Below are positions 5,859 through 34,571 of a stretch of 36,525 nucleotides of DNA, piece after piece (position 1 is the first letter of the stretch; the number at the start of each line of letters is the position of its first letter). The stretch is from a virus. Where the stretch lies: IMG/VR virus record IMGVR_UViG_3300037297_000047, positions 1-36,525 of that record. The stretch is one strand, 5' to 3'. The notes under the pieces were generated by a model that worked only from the letters and a program-made list of their open reading frames with translations, ran no database searches and was not told the DNA's origin. Made by a program: the position numbers and the translations under genes.

Positions 5859-5908
5859 CACACACCTCTTTTAAAATTTTTTATTATAAACACCCATGAC
5901 TCATATAT

Positions 5909-5914
5909 TGTCAA
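5909..5914 (-). promoter_or_regulatory. Conserved ACTACTTGACA element (-35-like)
   Basis: Minus-strand AAAAACTACTTGACAATAT, about 50 bases upstream of the start at 5858. A TATAAT lies 20 bases downstream of TTGACA, longer than ideal spacing. Same family as the elements at 1678 and 34551. Confidence 0.55.
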
Positions 5915-5924
5915 GTAGTTTTTA

Positions 5925-6029: not shown

Positions 6030-6216
6030 CTTGCTTATCCTCATCCAAAATAAACTTTGTGTTTCTCCTACAATCTTCACATAAACAAAACTCATATTCA
6101 TAATCACCGGGACACCATTTTTTAGTTTCGGTTAAATATCTAATTACATGCTTATTAGAAATAGAAACAAAATAATAATTTTCCGTTATTTTTACGCTAC
6201 ACCAAAAACACTTCAT
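6022..6216 (-). CDS. Zinc-ribbon-like protein, 64 aa
   Basis: Two cysteine pairs, CFWC at the start and CLCEDC in the second half, flank beta segments (YYFVSISNKHVIRYL), the typical layout of a small zinc ribbon. Acidic C-terminus. Shine-Dalgarno GGAGGCGGG is rather distant from the ATG. Coupled to the replication protein upstream and the membrane peptide downstream. Confidence 0.65.
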   Translation of the reverse strand: MKCFWCSVKITENYYFVSISNKHVIRYLTETKKWCPGDYEYEFCLCEDCRRNTKFILDEDKQDE

Positions 6217-6971
6217 TCCAGACCCGCCTCCTTCAGTTTTTTATTTCTATGTTCGTTTATTTCATCTTGATTATTTTCTTGTTGTTTAGGGGGAATTATT
6301 TCATCGTTCCATTTCTTTTGATTAAGGAATGTAGATAAGTTAGGCCTATATTGTTTATTAGGTATTGACTTAACATAATTATCTACAACATCCATTATCT
6401 TCTCATACTCTTTATTAGTAATCTTATCAAATGCCTGTAATGCTTTTACCTTACCAACCTTTTTATCATATTTAGACCATAAAAGATCAAACTTTAAAGC
6501 ATTTTCTTTTTCGTTTAAGCATTTATCTTTTTCGTTTAAGCATTTGTTGTCTAAACCGGGAGAGCGGGTTTGCGGTGCGCCCGGTTTAAGTGTTGCGGGT
6601 TCGTCTATTGACTCTATTTCGAAAGGAGTCGTTTTAGTTCTAACCTTTATATATGATTCTATAAAATGCCCTTCCTTATCTCTTCTTTGAATTTTTTCAA
6701 TAATTCCTAATTGTAGTAAAAGTTTTTTTGCTTTTCTTAGTTTTTCTGATCCCCAGTTTAACCCTTTTCTTAAATAAACATCTTTAGCTTTCACTTGATT
6801 AGTAGATTGAAGTCTTGCAGTAAACATTAAGTGAGAGTACAATAAATAAGCATCCATGCCGACTTTGCCATAGCTTAAAAATAATTTGTATTTTGCTACG
6901 GTGACAAATATCAATTCTCCGTCTACTTCAATGCTAATTTTATCATAATCTTTAGTTTTTTCTGTCATCAT
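6213..6971 (-). CDS. Replication initiator, O-protein-like
   Basis: 252 residues. The N-terminal half is a winged-helix type domain (residues about 15-110; DAYLLYSHLMF, WGSEKLRKAKKLLLQLGIIEK). The middle is a flexible linker. The C-terminal part (LLWSKYDKKVGKVKALQAF ... NLSTFLNQKKWND) is the small domain often found at the end of phage replication and helicase-loading proteins. By analogy with lambda O it would bind the origin and recruit the host helicase. The linker-coding DNA holds direct repeats and an inverted repeat that may be the origin. Its start overlaps the upstream gene by 20 bases. Confidence 0.7.
   Translation of the reverse strand: MMTEKTKDYDKISIEVDGELIFVTVAKYKLFLSYGKVGMDAYLLYSHLMFTARLQSTNQVKAKDVYLRKGLNWGSEKLRKAKKLLLQLGIIEKIQRRDKEGHFIESYIKVRTKTTPFEIESIDEPATLKPGAPQTRSPGLDNKCLNEKDKCLNEKENALKFDLLWSKYDKKVGKVKALQAFDKITNKEYEKIMDVVDNYVKSIPNKQYRPNLSTFLNQKKWNDEIIPPKQQENNQDEINEHRNKKLKEAGLE
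6492..6588. other. Putative replication origin inside the initiator gene
   Basis: Two copies of a 19-base iteron containing CGTTTAAGCATTT (6506-6524, 6527-6545) at a 21-base period, a degenerate third copy (6492-6504), and a GC-rich inverted repeat TAAACCGGG/CCCGGTTTA (6552-6560, 6580-6588) around a 19-base spacer. Iterons within the linker of an O-like gene are how lambdoid origins are built. Function is inferred from this layout. Confidence 0.5.
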
Positions 6972-7209
6972 TTACCCCATTAGAATTTGCTATAAATTCT
7001 TTCAAGTATCCCATGTTATCTAAATCTATTATAACTTCATCAATTTTGCCAAATTGCAAAAACATAAAAATACTCTTATATATAGTATTTGCATCATATA
7101 TAGTTATATTGCTTAATCTCATTACTTTTGCTATAATGCTCTTACCCGGGCTTCCACCCCCAAAAAACTGTTTTTCATATTTAAACCACTCTTCAGTAAA
7201 TATATTCAT
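6952..7209 (-). CDS. Hypothetical replication-operon protein, 85 aa
   Basis: First gene of the replication operon, with GGAGGATTAA before the ATG. Residues about 14-60 include FGGGSPGKSIIAKVMRL, a glycine-rich stretch that superficially resembles a P-loop, though the rest of an ATPase is missing. It overlaps the initiator gene by 20 bases and may be a helper of it. No family recognised. Confidence 0.55.
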   Translation of the reverse strand: MNIFTEEWFKYEKQFFGGGSPGKSIIAKVMRLSNITIYDANTIYKSIFMFLQFGKIDEVIIDLDNMGYLKEFIANSNGVNDDRKN

Positions 7210-7221
7210 TTAATCCTCCAT

Positions 7222-7284
7222 AAAAAAAAGAGACCACCTAAGCCCCTGATAATTCAGTCTGGAAAGTCGGCTTAAATGATCTCT
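7222..7284 (-). terminator. Intrinsic terminator/attenuator in the replication-operon leader
   Basis: Minus-strand RNA forms an uninterrupted 16-bp stem (7229-7244 with 7269-7284, including G-U pairs that would be mismatches on the other strand) followed directly by eight U's. It lies only a few bases upstream of the GGAGG of the gene at 6952-7209. Transcription must pass it to express replication genes, so it is a probable attenuator. Its loop base 7259-7266 is perfectly complementary to 7315-7322 further upstream in the leader. Confidence 0.75.
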
Positions 7285-7287
7285 TAT

Positions 7288-7305
7288 GTTATAATTTATT
7301 ATAAC
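7288..7305 (-). promoter_or_regulatory. Palindrome overlapping a possible second promoter
   Basis: A perfect palindrome GTTATAAT-tt-ATTATAAC. On the minus strand TTGAAC, 18 bases and TATAAT form a fair promoter whose -10 lies in this palindrome. A transcript from here would begin just before the attenuator hairpin and lack the complementary segment at 7315-7322. A related GCAAGTTATAATAAA segment occurs near 7732-7750. Confidence 0.4.
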
Positions 7306-7371
7306 TTGCTTCTGCTTTCCAGTTCAAAAGTAAGTCATAACTTTAAATAAAGTTAGTACATGGTTATTTAT

Positions 7372-7377
7372 TGTCAA
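7372..7377 (-). promoter_or_regulatory. Conserved TACTTGACA element (-35-like)
   Basis: Minus-strand AAAATACTTGACAATA, about 165 bases upstream of the replication operon. TAACTT follows after 16 bases. A transcript from here would contain the whole attenuator leader. Confidence 0.55.
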
Positions 7378-7418
7378 GTATTTTTCAATAGTTTTGCCTG
7401 TTGCTTTTATTACTTATA

Positions 7419-7471
7419 GGGACGGCGCTTCGCGCCATCCCCTACTCTCCCCCTATTCAGGGGAGAGTAGG
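7419..7471 (-). repeat. GC-rich twin hairpins
   Basis: Two adjacent hairpins just after the stop of the gene at 7482. The first has a 10-bp stem (7419-7428 with 7432-7441) with a 3-base loop; one pair is G-U only in minus-strand RNA. The second is a 12-bp stem (7441-7452 with 7460-7471). Far more GC-rich than the surroundings. Could be a transcript-ending or RNA-protecting structure, or a host-type intergenic palindrome. No U-tract follows. Confidence 0.6.
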
Positions 7472-7700: not shown

Positions 7701-7738
7701 TTTTCCCTCCATTAAAATTGGTCTTTAGTTATATTTTA

Positions 7739-7828
7739 TTATAACTTGCAACTATTTATAATAAAAAATACAACGCAAAGGACAATAATAATAATTGATA
7801 TTATATCTAAAAAGTTATTCATAATCAT
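7739..7828 (-). CDS. Tiny single-helix membrane peptide, 29 aa
   Basis: Frame MIMNNFLDIISIIIIVLCVV, then FFIINSCKL. Almost entirely hydrophobic with one long transmembrane helix. It starts about 27 bases after TTGACA at 7855-7860, with only a weak GGTAA ribosome site. AT-rich DNA easily yields such frames, so confidence is moderate; I list it because clearer members of this peptide type occur elsewhere. Confidence 0.35.
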   Translation of the reverse strand: MIMNNFLDIISIIIIVLCVVFFIINSCKL

Positions 7829-7854
7829 TTACCAATTATCTTTTTTGATTGTAT

Positions 7855-7860
7855 TGTCAA
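7855..7860 (-). promoter_or_regulatory. Conserved TACTTGACA element (-35-like)
   Basis: Minus-strand AAAATACTTGACAATA upstream of the gene at 7482-7700. TAATTG follows at 16 bases. It lies nearly back-to-back with the plus-strand promoter at 7879, so the two could interfere. Confidence 0.5.
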
Positions 7861-7878
7861 GTATTTTCTAAATTATTC

Positions 7879-10666: not shown

Positions 10667-12475
10667 CTAAGTTATAATTTCTTCTATCCAGTTGTTGTTG
10701 TCTTCATCATTAAAATATATATTTGATTCATCCCAAAACGAATTAACTTCAATTGTTGGGATCGTATAGGGTTTGACAAATCTCATTGAAAGTTTTATTG
10801 TGAAATTTTCTAAATTTTTCGTAACGCCTAATACTTCATAAATACCAAAATTACCCGATGTAGAACTAATTCTATCTGTAGGATTTGCTATGATAAAATC
10901 TGTTGGTTCTATATTGACGTAAGACCAATTTGTTGTTCGCTCAATAATATCGTCTATCTCTGAAGACAATTCCATTATTGTTTCTGATTTGTCGATAGCG
11001 TCTGCTAAAGTAGTTAACTCGGTGTCAAATGTTTCGGTTTTATATTGTTTGTATCTGTCAAAAGCTACATCTCTGAAGTCTACATTCTCATAATATACCC
11101 TTGTATCTTCGTCTATATTATGATTATAACCTATCCTTACACTTGTTAAATATTGAGATCCATTATTCACGATTGCAGGGTCATCAATCCAGTCATCTTT
11201 TAAAATTGTGTAATCGGGGTTTCTGTTTTCATCATATAGCCTAGCAGTATAAAGCCCGTTGTCCTTAACAAAAAACCTTATATCACAATCATTAGCAACT
11301 GACTCTATAGCATCAGACAATTTTACACTTGAATCGTCTATATATAAGCTTGTGTCTCTTGCGCTTGATGCTGCTAAATTCATTTCGTCTACGTCAAAAA
11401 AAGAGTCTAAAAATGGCTTTGTATCATAATTTAACATTAAATCTTTTAATATCTCGACACCGTTTTTTATATCTACAGTAAAATCAATTTTGACCTCGTC
11501 GAAATCTCCTCCAACATCACCAGACGTAAGATTAAAAGTACCTAATATTAAATTAGTGCTTGCAGGGGTTTTTGCGACTCCATTGACTCTTACCTCTTGA
11601 ATTGATCCAACAAAGTTATTAGAAGTATCCGCAAACAAAAACGTATATTCAGAAGGGCTTGTTTCTTCTTCATTTAAGCAATAACTAGGTGCGTTTAATA
11701 TCTTGCCATATGCAACAGGCTTTGCTTGATCATTATTGTTGTCATTCAAAAAAGGATAATCTAAGGTGCTTAGCAAATTAGTAGAAACCCCTTGCGTTAG
11801 GCCTTTTCTCGGATCTTGTATCGTCAAATCAAACTCTGCCCAAGTTCTTTTGTCATTTTCGATAAAACCAGTATAAACATCATCAAAGTCTTGGTATCCG
11901 TCACCCACATCGCCTACTTTAATCCGGCTCGACATCGCAAATAAGTTTCTTGTTCTCCAGTCGTCAAATTCACCATCATTATTAGCAAATTTTACTGAAC
12001 CTGATTGATATTTTAATAAACCATAAAAAAGCGGATCAATGGACTTTTTAAGATTAAAAATGCTGGTTACTCTAGGCTCATAATACTGGTTGTTGTAATA
12101 ATTGCTTGTGTTTGTTTTGTAAGAATAACCTACAGCAACGCCAATGACCAAATCGTTTGAAAGTACTGGCTCAAAATCTTCTAAATGAATATAAACTTTT
12201 GTTGTGTCGGTATCATAATAAAAACTATTATCAGTCAATTTGCAGTCGCTTATACTAAACGTTTGAGCCAAAGAAATATCTCTATATCTAAAAGAACTTA
12301 CATTATATATTTGTTCATTATTCCAATCGTAGAAACCCTGATTCCCGTAGTCATCAGTTAAAGCTAAAACGCTTGGAGTCAATGTCCAAAACCAGACACC
12401 AGCCTCATAATTTAGCATGTTTCTTAAATCAAGAGGTATATCGTATTCGAAAAGTATTATTTTATTTGTTGCCAT
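10667..12475 (-). CDS. Central tail hub / tail-tip protein
   Basis: 602 residues, starting at the ATG overlapping the upstream stop (TAATG). The order baseplate-hub-like N-terminus, repeated beta domains (FEYDIPLDLRNML, LLKYQSGSVKFANNDGEFD, VYTGFIENDK) and a late domain with strands like VTSVRIGYN resembles tail-hub proteins that sit at the tail tip of siphoviruses. Position between distal tail proteins and the receptor-binding protein supports this. No hydrolase motif seen. Confidence 0.65.
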   Translation of the reverse strand: MATNKIILFEYDIPLDLRNMLNYEAGVWFWTLTPSVLALTDDYGNQGFYDWNNEQIYNVSSFRYRDISLAQTFSISDCKLTDNSFYYDTDTTKVYIHLEDFEPVLSNDLVIGVAVGYSYKTNTSNYYNNQYYEPRVTSIFNLKKSIDPLFYGLLKYQSGSVKFANNDGEFDDWRTRNLFAMSSRIKVGDVGDGYQDFDDVYTGFIENDKRTWAEFDLTIQDPRKGLTQGVSTNLLSTLDYPFLNDNNNDQAKPVAYGKILNAPSYCLNEEETSPSEYTFLFADTSNNFVGSIQEVRVNGVAKTPASTNLILGTFNLTSGDVGGDFDEVKIDFTVDIKNGVEILKDLMLNYDTKPFLDSFFDVDEMNLAASSARDTSLYIDDSSVKLSDAIESVANDCDIRFFVKDNGLYTARLYDENRNPDYTILKDDWIDDPAIVNNGSQYLTSVRIGYNHNIDEDTRVYYENVDFRDVAFDRYKQYKTETFDTELTTLADAIDKSETIMELSSEIDDIIERTTNWSYVNIEPTDFIIANPTDRISSTSGNFGIYEVLGVTKNLENFTIKLSMRFVKPYTIPTIEVNSFWDESNIYFNDEDNNNWIEEIIT

Positions 12476-13554
12476 TAACAAAACCTTGCAATAATCATAG
12501 ATGCAAATGTAGATCCTGATCCCCCACTTGGAGATATTTCCATATCTATTAAATCACCTTTTTCAAGATAAATACAGCCGCTGGTATAGCTTATTTGAGC
12601 AGCCCCTGCTGTATAGGAAATCCCCAAAAGAACATTAGATATATTTCTTGCTCCATTAACTCTAAAATAGTGAGTTGAAGCAGTAGTTCCTCCTGTAGAA
12701 CTTCTCATACTCACATGATATAACCCTGTAACAGGTATTAAAACATCTCCTCCGCTTAATTGGAAATTAAAGCTTGTGTTGTTGGTATCAAAAGACAGTG
12801 AAGGAAATACACTACTTCCGCTATGGGCTTGATTGCCTTCTACATGCGCTATATATTTTTTGTTGTAATCATCAGACCAATTTTTATAAAGTTGCCTTTT
12901 ATCTGTGTAACTAGCAGTTGACTTTTCCATGCTGGCAATATGCCTATAATTAGCTAAAGCGCCTGATCCGTAATATCCTTGTTTTGAGTCAGACCAAACA
13001 GGAGCGGTCGCAGTAAATGCAGCAGATAAAGACCCTCCGACAATAGTTATTGCTGTCGCACTGGCTGGGATTGCCTGTTGTAATCCGGGGGACGCTATAG
13101 TAATTGTCCCACCGTTGCTTACATCTCCATCACCTGAAGTTATAGTATACTTGTTAATATCCCCAGCAAATTGAATTATGTCTCCTGCCAATATATCCCC
13201 TGTCCCTGCACTGGCCAAAGTAATACTTGTCGCGCCTATATTATACCCTGTGGCATCTGTAGTAGCTCCAGAAGCTGACCCAGATTGAGGAACTAGACAA
13301 AGATAAATTTCGCCGTCTGCCACCGTAGTACTTGTAACTGGGTCTGTAGTACTTATACTTTCATTTGAATCAAACTTATACAGCGCCCCGTTATTTTCAA
13401 CCCAACTACCCGCCGCTATCTCTGGTACTGTAGTAGTAAGCATTTCAGTTAAAGTGATTGACCCTTCTCCTTTAAATGCTTTATCTAGGGTCAACATTAT
13501 ATTGTCAAGGTTTGCGTCCCCTATTGCGTAATCACTAACAATTGTTCCTGCCAT
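12475..13554 (-). CDS. Tail-tip protein carrying a coat-protein insertion domain and a C1q-like domain
   Basis: 359 residues. The N-terminus (1-90) is a small attachment part. Residues about 92-172 are nearly the same as residues 226-303 of the major coat protein (shared GATTDATGY, SITLASAGTG, ILAGD, FAGD, SATAIT), about three quarters identical by eye. The C-terminal part (about 240-359) is C1q/TNF-like (VLIPVTGLYHVSMRS, FRVNGARN, YLEKGDLIDMEI). The coat domain in a tail protein is unusual. Start after GGAGGCCAGATAA. Confidence 0.65.
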   Translation of the reverse strand: MAGTIVSDYAIGDANLDNIMLTLDKAFKGEGSITLTEMLTTTVPEIAAGSWVENNGALYKFDSNESISTTDPVTSTTVADGEIYLCLVPQSGSASGATTDATGYNIGATSITLASAGTGDILAGDIIQFAGDINKYTITSGDGDVSNGGTITIASPGLQQAIPASATAITIVGGSLSAAFTATAPVWSDSKQGYYGSGALANYRHIASMEKSTASYTDKRQLYKNWSDDYNKKYIAHVEGNQAHSGSSVFPSLSFDTNNTSFNFQLSGGDVLIPVTGLYHVSMRSSTGGTTASTHYFRVNGARNISNVLLGISYTAGAAQISYTSGCIYLEKGDLIDMEISPSGGSGSTFASMIIARFC

Positions 13555-22910: not shown

Positions 22911-24062
22911 CTATCCTAGCAAGATAGCTGTATGTTCAGGCTTAATAAGTTTGGTTCCCCAAGCTATTCTAACATGTAAAGAATTTTGCAAGAACTGTTT
23001 GTATTGTGCTACTTCAAAAGATAAGCCAGTGTTAGGGTCTGTTAAGATCTCAGTAGCTGTTGCTAAGTCTCCTCCGATAGGCTGAGCAGGCATCCTTGTT
23101 GCCAGATGAATTGCAGTACGGTGAAATCCAATATTAGCAGTATAATCACTAGAAACCGTGATAGCAGTAGCACTTGTCGGAATTGCTTGTCTTAATCCAG
23201 GTGCTGCAATAACTATAGTTCCGCCACCTGAAACATCTGCATCACCAGTAACAACTAAATACTTATTTGTGTCACCAGCAAAAGTAATAACATCGCCCGC
23301 TAGAATTGTTCCTGTCCCCGCACTAGCAAGTGTAATTGAGGTAGTTCCTACTGCATAACCAGTCGCGTCAGTAGTCGCACCAGCAGCAGTTCCCGCAGTG
23401 TGTGACTGCACTTGAGCTGATTCTCTAATATCAAGACCACTAAGAGGCAATAGCACACCTTGTCTTAATGTCGCATCTGTCCCGGCAGTGTTTTGCTGGT
23501 TAAGTGTTGTTAAATCTCTCAGGTTAACTCCTGCTGTTGTGTCGACCACAAGATGCCTGTCACCTAGTGGAGTCCCGTTATCTGTCAGTATCTTTGCTAT
23601 TTGATTTGCATCACTAATACTTGTTGCAAATGGTGTAGTCCCAGCTGTTCCGAATGCCCTTGAAGACAAGAGATACTCTTGCGCTATATCTGCTTCAATT
23701 TCATTTACTAAAGTTCTGATCGCTTGAGCAGTTTGCTGTGCTAACGTAGAACTGTATAATCCATTGTTAGAATATCCTTGTGTTTGCTCTCCATTCCATC
23801 GAATAGGAACGTGCCTAGATTTGTCGATAGTGATTGTAGTATTATCGATTGTTTGGTCACCTGTGTCAGGTGGTGTTACCGCTGGTGTGTTGTCTGCTGC
23901 CGATTGTGGTTGTGTCTGAGGGATTCTTACAACCTCATTTAGTGCTGCTCTTTCTACTGTGTTATCTGTAGACACAGAAGGGATAAATCCTGTAATCTCC
24001 CTACTTACTACGTCCAAACCCTCATATAAATCAGGGATTAAATCTGTCAATGTGTTTGCCAT
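22911..24062 (-). CDS. Major capsid protein, P22 coat-like
   Basis: 383 residues. The start MANTLTDLIPDLYEGLDVVS with REITGFIPSV and VERAALNEVVR, then TPAVTPPDTGDQ and WNGEQTQGY, is the well-known P22-like coat pattern; the end (LAWG-like RIAWGTKLIKPEHTAILLG) also matches. Residues 226-303 are the inserted barrel domain (SITLASAGTGTILAGDVI ... FAGDTNKYLV). Follows the scaffold gene; start after AGGAGACATAATAAA. Confidence 0.9.
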   Translation of the reverse strand: MANTLTDLIPDLYEGLDVVSREITGFIPSVSTDNTVERAALNEVVRIPQTQPQSAADNTPAVTPPDTGDQTIDNTTITIDKSRHVPIRWNGEQTQGYSNNGLYSSTLAQQTAQAIRTLVNEIEADIAQEYLLSSRAFGTAGTTPFATSISDANQIAKILTDNGTPLGDRHLVVDTTAGVNLRDLTTLNQQNTAGTDATLRQGVLLPLSGLDIRESAQVQSHTAGTAAGATTDATGYAVGTTSITLASAGTGTILAGDVITFAGDTNKYLVVTGDADVSGGGTIVIAAPGLRQAIPTSATAITVSSDYTANIGFHRTAIHLATRMPAQPIGGDLATATEILTDPNTGLSFEVAQYKQFLQNSLHVRIAWGTKLIKPEHTAILLG

Positions 24063-29571: not shown

Positions 29572-29628
29572 TCCTTGCTCGCTTTCATTTAGTGTATTCA
29601 CGTTATTCTTATTGCTTTTATTTGATAT

Positions 29629-29634
29629 TGTCAA
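29629..29634 (-). promoter_or_regulatory. Conserved TACTTGACA element, late promoter candidate
   Basis: Minus-strand AAAATACTTGACAATA with TAAGAA after 17 bases, upstream of the terminase and head genes. A TTTATC-AAAA-GATAAA dyad (about 29640-29655) sits just upstream and could be an operator, possibly for the neighbouring HigA-like protein. Confidence 0.55.
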
Positions 29635-29708
29635 GTATTTTTATCTTTTGATAAATTTTTCAAAGTATCGTCATAATTTTCAATTAGATCTTGATAAACT
29701 TCATCAAC

Positions 29709-33635: not shown

Positions 33636-34126
33636 TTTGCCACCTCTTTTTCAATCAAACGAATAATTATATCTCGGTAATTATCCCAGATATATGCAGC
33701 CTGATCATAAAGCATGATAGCTTTTTCTCTTTCAAGGGAAACCCACTCTTTAATTTTTTTTTGAATACATCCAAAAAATAAAACATCTTTTGTGAAAACT
33801 ATTGGGAAATTACATATTTGTAATGATTTTATTTCTTGCCCATTCCCAATAACATATCTTAGATCGGCATCCCTGAAATCAGCATTCTCAAGAATAGCAC
33901 CCCCAAAATTAGCACCCCTGAAATTAGCACACCCAAGATCAGCGTCCCTGAGATTAGCATATCTGAGATCGGCATCTCTAAAATCAGCACCCCTGAAATC
34001 AGCATCCTCAAAATTAGCACCCCTGAAATTAGCGCCCCTGAAATTAGCCAAGCTTCCTATTTTCCCTTTTGAATCTAACCATTTTTTATGATCAACTAAC
34101 ATTTCTTTTAATTTCTCTTTATTCAT
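33632..34126 (-). CDS. Pentapeptide-repeat protein
   Basis: 164 residues. Residues about 25-85 are tandem pentapeptides of the A(D/N)(F/L)xx type (ANFRGANFRGANFEDADFRG, ADLRYANLRDADLGCANFRG), which form a right-handed quadrilateral helix. The remainder is a C-terminal helical part. Such proteins can mimic DNA and protect topoisomerases (for example Qnr) or act as structural adaptors. Start after AAAGAGGTGGGGA. Confidence 0.85.
   Translation of the reverse strand: MNKEKLKEMLVDHKKWLDSKGKIGSLANFRGANFRGANFEDADFRGADFRDADLRYANLRDADLGCANFRGANFGGAILENADFRDADLRYVIGNGQEIKSLQICNFPIVFTKDVLFFGCIQKKIKEWVSLEREKAIMLYDQAAYIWDNYRDIIIRLIEKEVAK
33850..34060. repeat. 15-bp periodic repeats encoding pentapeptides
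   Basis: Repeated units such as CCTGAAATTAGC in tandem at a 15-bp period, matching the pentapeptide repeats. They are a likely site of expansion or recombination. Confidence 0.75.
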
Positions 34127-34518: not shown

Positions 34519-34550
34519 TGTTACCTCCAATATACACCTTAATATAATAT

Positions 34551-34556
34551 TGTCAA
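34551..34556 (-). promoter_or_regulatory. Conserved ACTACTTGACA element
   Basis: Minus-strand AAAAACTACTTGACAATAT; TATATT follows 16 bases later, immediately before GGAGG. If it is a -35/-10 pair, transcription would start at the ATG, so it may instead be an operator or give leaderless RNA. Confidence 0.45.
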
Positions 34557-34571
34557 GTAGTTTTTATTATT

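Follow-up and report, generated by a model that had tools for sequence, protein, structure and literature searches.

A candidate leader attenuator built as two kissing hairpins in the replication-initiator operon of an uncultured phage

The window analysed here, the 36,525-base virus record IMGVR_UViG_3300037297_000047, carries on its minus strand a leader element that we consider likely, with moderate confidence, to be a pair of kissing hairpins attenuating the operon of the replication initiator. The downstream hairpin (H2) is by its sequence an intrinsic terminator, and the bulge at its apex is complementary to the loop of the upstream hairpin (H1). Two elements were also found upstream of the initiator of a distant relative, La (locus L003, 2070-2178) and Lb (L003, 2704-2810). 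The element is probably a real, previously undescribed RNA switch, because the relative has two such RNAs with loops that are different yet matching. An initial annotation of the window had reported an exact 8-base complementarity between 7259-7266 and 7315-7322, which was borne out along with its coordinates. Its placement of a terminator in the replication-operon leader, with an apex pairing to the upstream leader, is supported. The observation as a whole is confirmed, whereas its interpretation is partly supported.

Architecture of the leader element and its promoters

On the minus strand, from 7377 to 7209, the order is a TTGACA promoter, H1, a 14-nt linker, H2, 8 U, GGAGG, and ATG. The features of the element and its surroundings are as follows.

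7369-7380, minus strand: P1 promoter box, TACTTGACAATA, with the -35 TTGACA at 7377-7372
7298-7341, minus strand: H1, the 5' hairpin, 16 bp (10 bp, A.C mismatch, 6 bp) with a 10-nt loop, AACUGGAAAG, from folding and prefix folds
7315-7322, minus strand: a, the kissing strand in the H1 apical loop, CUGGAAAG (as DNA CTGGAAAG)
7298-7327, minus strand: possible inner promoter P2 inside H1, TTGAAC-18-TATAAT, 10/12 consensus
7288-7305, minus strand: h, an alternative small hairpin of the H1 3' arm and linker, GUUAUAAUAAAUUAUAAC, 7 bp, -2.2 kcal/mol
7230-7283, minus strand: H2, the terminator hairpin, with a 15-bp stem, the a' bulge, and a 4-bp mini-hairpin at 7257-7246
7259-7266, minus strand: a', the kissing partner of a at the terminator apex, CUUUCCAG (as DNA CTTTCCAG)
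7222-7229, minus strand: terminator U-tract, 8 T in the DNA, from the sequence
7215-7219, minus strand: GGAGG of the first gene, 2 nt past the U-tract, from the sequence; ATG at 7209
6952-7209, minus strand: 85-aa ORF, the first gene behind the putative attenuator, with no Pfam or PHROG match
6213-6971, minus strand: replication initiator (phrog_270, 3.6e-24)
7722-7749, minus strand: partial copy of the H1 3' arm and linker, without the terminator, 89% over 28 nt
1675-1686, 5906-5917, 7369-7380, 7852-7863, 29626-29637, and 34548-34559, coding strand: copies of the box TACTTGACAWTA, by count

The H2 stem pairs 7283-7269 with 7244-7230, which gives 15 bp counting G-U, and basal A/U pairs extend it to 17-18 bp. 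The 16-bp terminator annotated just before the GGAGG was thus right in its position, whereas its stem is one of 15 bp plus an A/U extension. The apex is composed of an 11-nt 5' bulge, which holds a', and the mini-hairpin; the proposed pairing with the leader stands, but the single open loop does not. The apex strand 7266-7259 (CTTTCCAG) and the upstream strand 7322-7315 (CTGGAAAG) are exact reverse complements of each other, and the isolated a:a' duplex of the window has an energy of -9.7 kcal/mol (duplex energy alone). The window element is a kissing-hairpin pair because 7322-7315 sits in the apical loop of H1; this segment had been described as upstream leader, and it is upstream, but it is not free. 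Hairpin h has counterparts of the form AGUUUU..AAAACU in both relative elements (-2.7 and -1.5 kcal/mol). A leader peptide was considered and set aside; no ORF of at least 30 aa was found inside the element on the coding strand.

The 12-base box TACTTGACAWTA is present in six copies in the window, each on the coding strand, where 0.02 copies would be expected; therefore, P1 is one of a series of likely phage promoters, and the copies are probably the promoter set of the phage itself. The -10 of P1 is poor by consensus (nearest TAACTT, spacer 16). The promoters of La and Lb (TTGACA-17-TATATT) match the consensus at 11/12 positions. An RNA from P2, which may still be active in the window, would begin without H1. 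Regarding the two promoters initially annotated, the outer one belongs to the phage-wide box, but the inner site has no counterpart in La or Lb. The suggestion that the choice of promoter sets readthrough fared poorly, as promoter-like sites are as common in shuffles (74 in the window versus 73.5 expected) and the inner promoter is not conserved. A consensus scan of the plus strand near the window element gave no consensus promoter for an antisense RNA; in the relative, transcription across Lb could start from one weak 9/12 site, which La lacks.

The partial copy at 7722-7749 stands behind the second promoter box (7852-7863) and looks like a decayed second element, comparable to the relative with its two. 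Upstream of P1, the region 7420-7471 contains two strong adjacent hairpins without a T-run (z = -7.0 for the region).

Several other features of the window were recorded. The major head protein family phrog_283 is matched in part by residues 99-178 of the ORF at 12475-13554 and over its whole length by 22911-24062, so that the two have a domain in common. The ORF at 33632-34126 matches several unknown phage families and contains tandem repeats of 15/30 bases (33867-34048).

Related elements, compensatory change, and the initiator

The window initiator finds one phage in IMG/VR, 45% identical, which is present as two records (G001 and G002) that are identical over the 6,708 bases compared. La and Lb were found by sequence reading and by a descriptor scan. 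Each comprises a TTGACA-17-TATATT promoter, H1, linker, H2 with a U-tract, and a Shine-Dalgarno sequence. In all three elements, the position is behind a TTGACA promoter, the end lies just before the Shine-Dalgarno sequence, and the initiator follows 1-3 ORFs downstream. La and Lb are 76% identical, and the window element is 49-50% identical to either. The two kissing pairs of the relative (CCUCUAC/GUAGAGG and UCUCCGC/GCGGAGA) differ mutually and from the CUGGAAAG/CUUUCCAG pair of the window. Loss of the two 8-mers among relatives had been named as grounds for rejecting the initial annotation; the test was run, and the pairing is kept via different sequences in 3/3 elements.

The covariance check was also run. 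Between La and Lb, 6/41 pairs have two-sided changes, three of them among the seven kissing pairs, and no kissing pair is broken. As many two-sided changes were reached by 9/500 shuffles, a weak control with two sequences, and slid registers gave 0. A covariance model (R1) was then built from La and Lb only, with the kissing helix left out, and the whole window was scanned with the filters off. The best match was 7341-7224 with 24.4 bits (E 0.0034, rank 1/18), and the second reached 13.6 bits; the window element was thus recovered by a model built from the relative's elements alone. Most weight is given to this recovery and to the comparison of the two paralogs.

MAFFT did not align the window element with La and Lb, and the three-element alignment (A7) was fitted to the model structure and leans towards it. 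In this alignment, 98% of 100 cells are paired and 16/34 nested pairs have two-sided changes, a number reached by 0/500 shuffles, with slid registers giving 1-3. By helix, two-sided changes affect 6/14 pairs of H1 (three-sequence alignment) and 4/4 pairs of the H2 mini-hairpin; in the H2 stem, 16/16 aligned pairs are kept in 3/3 elements (gaps set aside), six of them with two-sided changes. At the sequence level, all four helices are kept through compensatory change. The sample comprises three elements from two independent uncultured phage lineages, with G001 and G002 identical here.

Chance controls were performed for the fold and for the loop match. The 156-nt leader folds at -37.8 kcal/mol (z = -4.0). 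With shuffled loops, 400,000 trials gave the 8-mer match of the window in a fraction of 7.8e-5; the kissing match was obtained in fractions of 2.4e-3 for La and 3.8e-3 for Lb, which are not independent of each other. A descriptor with a terminator stem of at least 14 and an apex starting with at least 7 nt complementary to the leader had 0 matches in 60 dinucleotide shuffles of the window. It also had 0 matches in 127 other loci (1.56 Mb, with overlaps kept in, the sister-phage loci included, and 27 related loci left out).

The initiators of the window and G001 share 63% identity over residues 1-120, which falls to 30% in the remainder. A sister phage, G003, is mostly ~95% identical to G001, but the two initiators (L110 14410-15225 versus L003 3001-3828) are 75% identical over the C-terminal 120 aa, whereas the first 151 aa of the G003 protein have no match. 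The G003 initiator matches replisome organizer families, and the exchange is probably a modular swap of the origin-binding half. Neither element was found in G003, and the small ORF behind La is retained there. The element is absent where the N-terminal domain is swapped; therefore, the RNA goes with the N-terminal domain of the initiator, as judged from this single contrast.

Both sister phages have a type II hammerhead ribozyme just downstream of the initiator (L003 4211-4285, 49.7 bits; L110 15602-15676, 45.5 bits; gathering score 37). On L003, the ORFs 1719-1985 and 2336-2608 have a common 49-aa N-terminal part (78% identical) and different C-terminal parts, and one of them ends in a stretch with a weak match to the end of a further protein of that phage. 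The Rfam tRNA model matches L003 5062-5170 over 109 bases with 36 bits (gathering score 29), and ARAGORN finds no tRNA.

Viral contigs were searched with the initiator, its alignment, the 85-aa ORF, TerL, two further proteins common to the window and the relative, the MDRFKF ORF, and a DNA pattern; in these searches, the element was found only in the window, G001, and G002. Among genome contigs, the initiator gave no match, and the capsid protein retrieved 24 loci of mixed taxa. R1 had L003 as its sole match on 77 loci. A covariance model, R2, had two matches among 50 of the 67 virus records listed, both being the already known pair. On genomes, R2 gave 0/22, 1/398, and 0/201 matches, in weak searches without a positive control among the bacterial genomes. 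The single match of the 398 was rejected as an ordinary short terminator skipping 33 model positions, including the apex. The phage DNA search returned no match for the window region or Lb and two short chance-like matches for the window element, and the plasmid DNA search with La returned short chance-like matches only.

Folding states, proposed mechanism, and alternatives

Folds of successive prefixes indicate that H1 forms first. Before the H2 3' arm is present, the nested a:a' fold, in which H1 is opened, is less stable than the best fold by 1.7, 1.1, and 1.1 kcal/mol at the first three lengths in the window. At the first three lengths tested, the corresponding values are 0, 0, and 0 kcal/mol for La and 2.3, 0.9, and 0.4 kcal/mol for Lb. 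The near-equality of the nested fold is partly built in by the a:a' complementarity. Thus, there would be a short period during which either leader state is allowed. In the whole RNA, the terminator is favoured by 17.7 (window), 20.7 (La), and 25.2 kcal/mol (Lb). As the terminator wins by 18-25 kcal/mol once its 3' arm is present, any readthrough must be kinetic or factor-driven. The kissing contact can coexist with the terminator because it uses only the apex and no stem nucleotides.

The initial annotation proposed a pseudoknot or an anti-terminator. The former survives as the loop-apex kissing contact. For the latter, the leader was compared with the terminator 5' arm, and 852 (window), 702 (La), and 977 (Lb) of 1000 shuffled leaders paired equally well or better. 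The leader does not match the 5' arm, and a simple anti-terminator is therefore not what these sequences support.

In the proposed mechanism, RNA polymerase would start at P1, so that the RNA would begin at or near H1 and H1 would be made first. The emerging apex of H2 would then dock on the H1 loop before the H2 3' arm exists. For most transcripts, synthesis would end in the U-tract and leave a compact ~120-nt RNA, and the remaining ones would read through, resulting in expression of the initiator. The amount of initiator would be set by whatever tips the balance between the folds while the 3' arm is still missing, be it a protein of the phage or host, pausing of the polymerase, or another RNA; from the modelled folds, readthrough may depend on the two-state leader. 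If the element works as proposed, it would be a compact ~120-nt switch with an easily swapped recognition pair, and the start of phage replication would be tied to RNA folding.

The terminated RNA might also act in trans, its exposed a and a' kissing the nascent leaders of other phage copies and raising termination, which we regard as distinctly unlikely. Such an action would provide dosage control of the initiator or immunity against like phages, and the a/a' pair would evolve like an incompatibility tag. That kind of evolution would explain the compensatory drift of the two paralogs to poorly cross-matching pairs: as isolated duplexes, the mismatched La/Lb combinations have -4.3 and -3.2 kcal/mol versus -9.3 and -11.4 kcal/mol for the matched ones.

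Three other explanations were weighed against the attenuator. The RNA may be the product in its own right, a stable small phage RNA of ~120 nt with H1 as its cap and H2 as its end, working in trans as a decoy, antisense, counter-defence, or packaging RNA, with the initiator expressed by terminator leak. The RNA is structured end to end, H1 begins 36-37 nt past the -35 in the window and La, near the expected start, H2 finishes in the U-tract, and the loops are conserved as a pair rather than as a sequence, all of which would suit such a product. However, a Shine-Dalgarno sequence right after the U-tract in 3/3 elements suits a leader better than a free RNA, the element is missing where the N-terminal domain of the initiator is swapped, and no known small RNA in Rfam was matched; we hold this explanation to be unlikely. 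A plain constitutive terminator or insulator, whose kissing match merely stabilises the RNA with nothing regulated, would account for the strong stem with its U-tract and for a final fold far more stable than any alternative. An unconditional terminator before an early operon would, however, silence it unless a promoter lies inside, and the compensatory change in the kissing pair shows selection on the pair, which makes this reading very unlikely.

It is more improbable still that the inverted repeats belong to a replication origin or an operator in the DNA and that the RNA structure is incidental. In favour of such a role, the element accompanies the DNA-binding half of the initiator, and an operator covering the inner -10 could be formed by a perfect palindrome (7288-7305) that is nearly repeated at 7728-7746. 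The operator was set aside, since the relative keeps the pairing but has another sequence at the palindrome. Furthermore, alignment columns 63/109 are U-G and 6/39 are G-U in 3/3 elements, which are pairs of RNA and not of a DNA cruciform; loop-apex covariation, a U-tract, and promoters ahead of the element are what a transcript would be expected to show, and no iterons were seen nearby. The leader attenuator thus remains our preferred reading.

Comparison with known systems

Plasmids provide the classic examples of attenuators preceding replication genes, and in these the RNA that makes the kissing contact is a separate antisense RNA. Rfam 15 gave 0 matches at the gathering score in the window; at E <= 10, only below-threshold, implausible matches were obtained at the window element, and L003 had just far-below-gathering matches at 2070-2178 and 2704-2810. 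In the open-access papers searched, no comparable RNA element was found.

The attenuators of pT181 and pIP501, together with P4 immunity, operate most similarly to the proposed switch. In the former, an intrinsic terminator lies immediately ahead of the rep start codon and is itself preceded by a 5' hairpin, which in pT181 engages in loop-loop kissing (PMC5703833 and PMC4878617); a C-A interior loop is described for this pT181 hairpin in PMC3753616. The terminator directly before a translation start is likewise the layout of the window element, La, and Lb, and H1 has an A.C or C.C mismatch in 2/3 elements, which resembles the C-A loop. Unlike rep in pT181 and pIP501, the initiator here is not the first gene but lies 1-3 ORFs further on. 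In those plasmids, the anti-terminator at the base of the hairpin takes up the terminator 5' arm, whereas the leader here has no such match; with 1000 shuffled leaders each, no pre-emptor of the pT181 type was detected in the window, La, or Lb, and membership of that type was rejected due to its absence.

Among phages, the P4 immunity system (CI RNA, seqA, seqC) is described in the part of PMC4825925 devoted to it as causing premature termination through short complementary upstream and downstream segments. By this description, the likeness lies in phage replication genes and in termination via short complementary RNA segments. P4, as portrayed there, has a processed CI RNA with two targets, whereas here there is one a/a' pair, with one hairpin for each strand. 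A second target of the P4 type was not found, as each element has one complementary pair and the window element contains no further copy of either 8-mer. The lines on IsrK of prophage Gifsy-1 in the same source (PMC4825925) present a leader that exists as a small RNA when terminated and also begins a readthrough mRNA. The phage leader examined here may have the same two roles, a likeness again drawn from the description; IsrK, in that account, acts on the translation of the readthrough RNA, whereas attenuation is proposed here. The kissing partner in pT181 and pIP501 is a separate antisense RNA, whereas here it is the terminator's own apex within the same RNA; what sets this element apart is a predicted kissing contact built into the leader and reaching the terminator tip.
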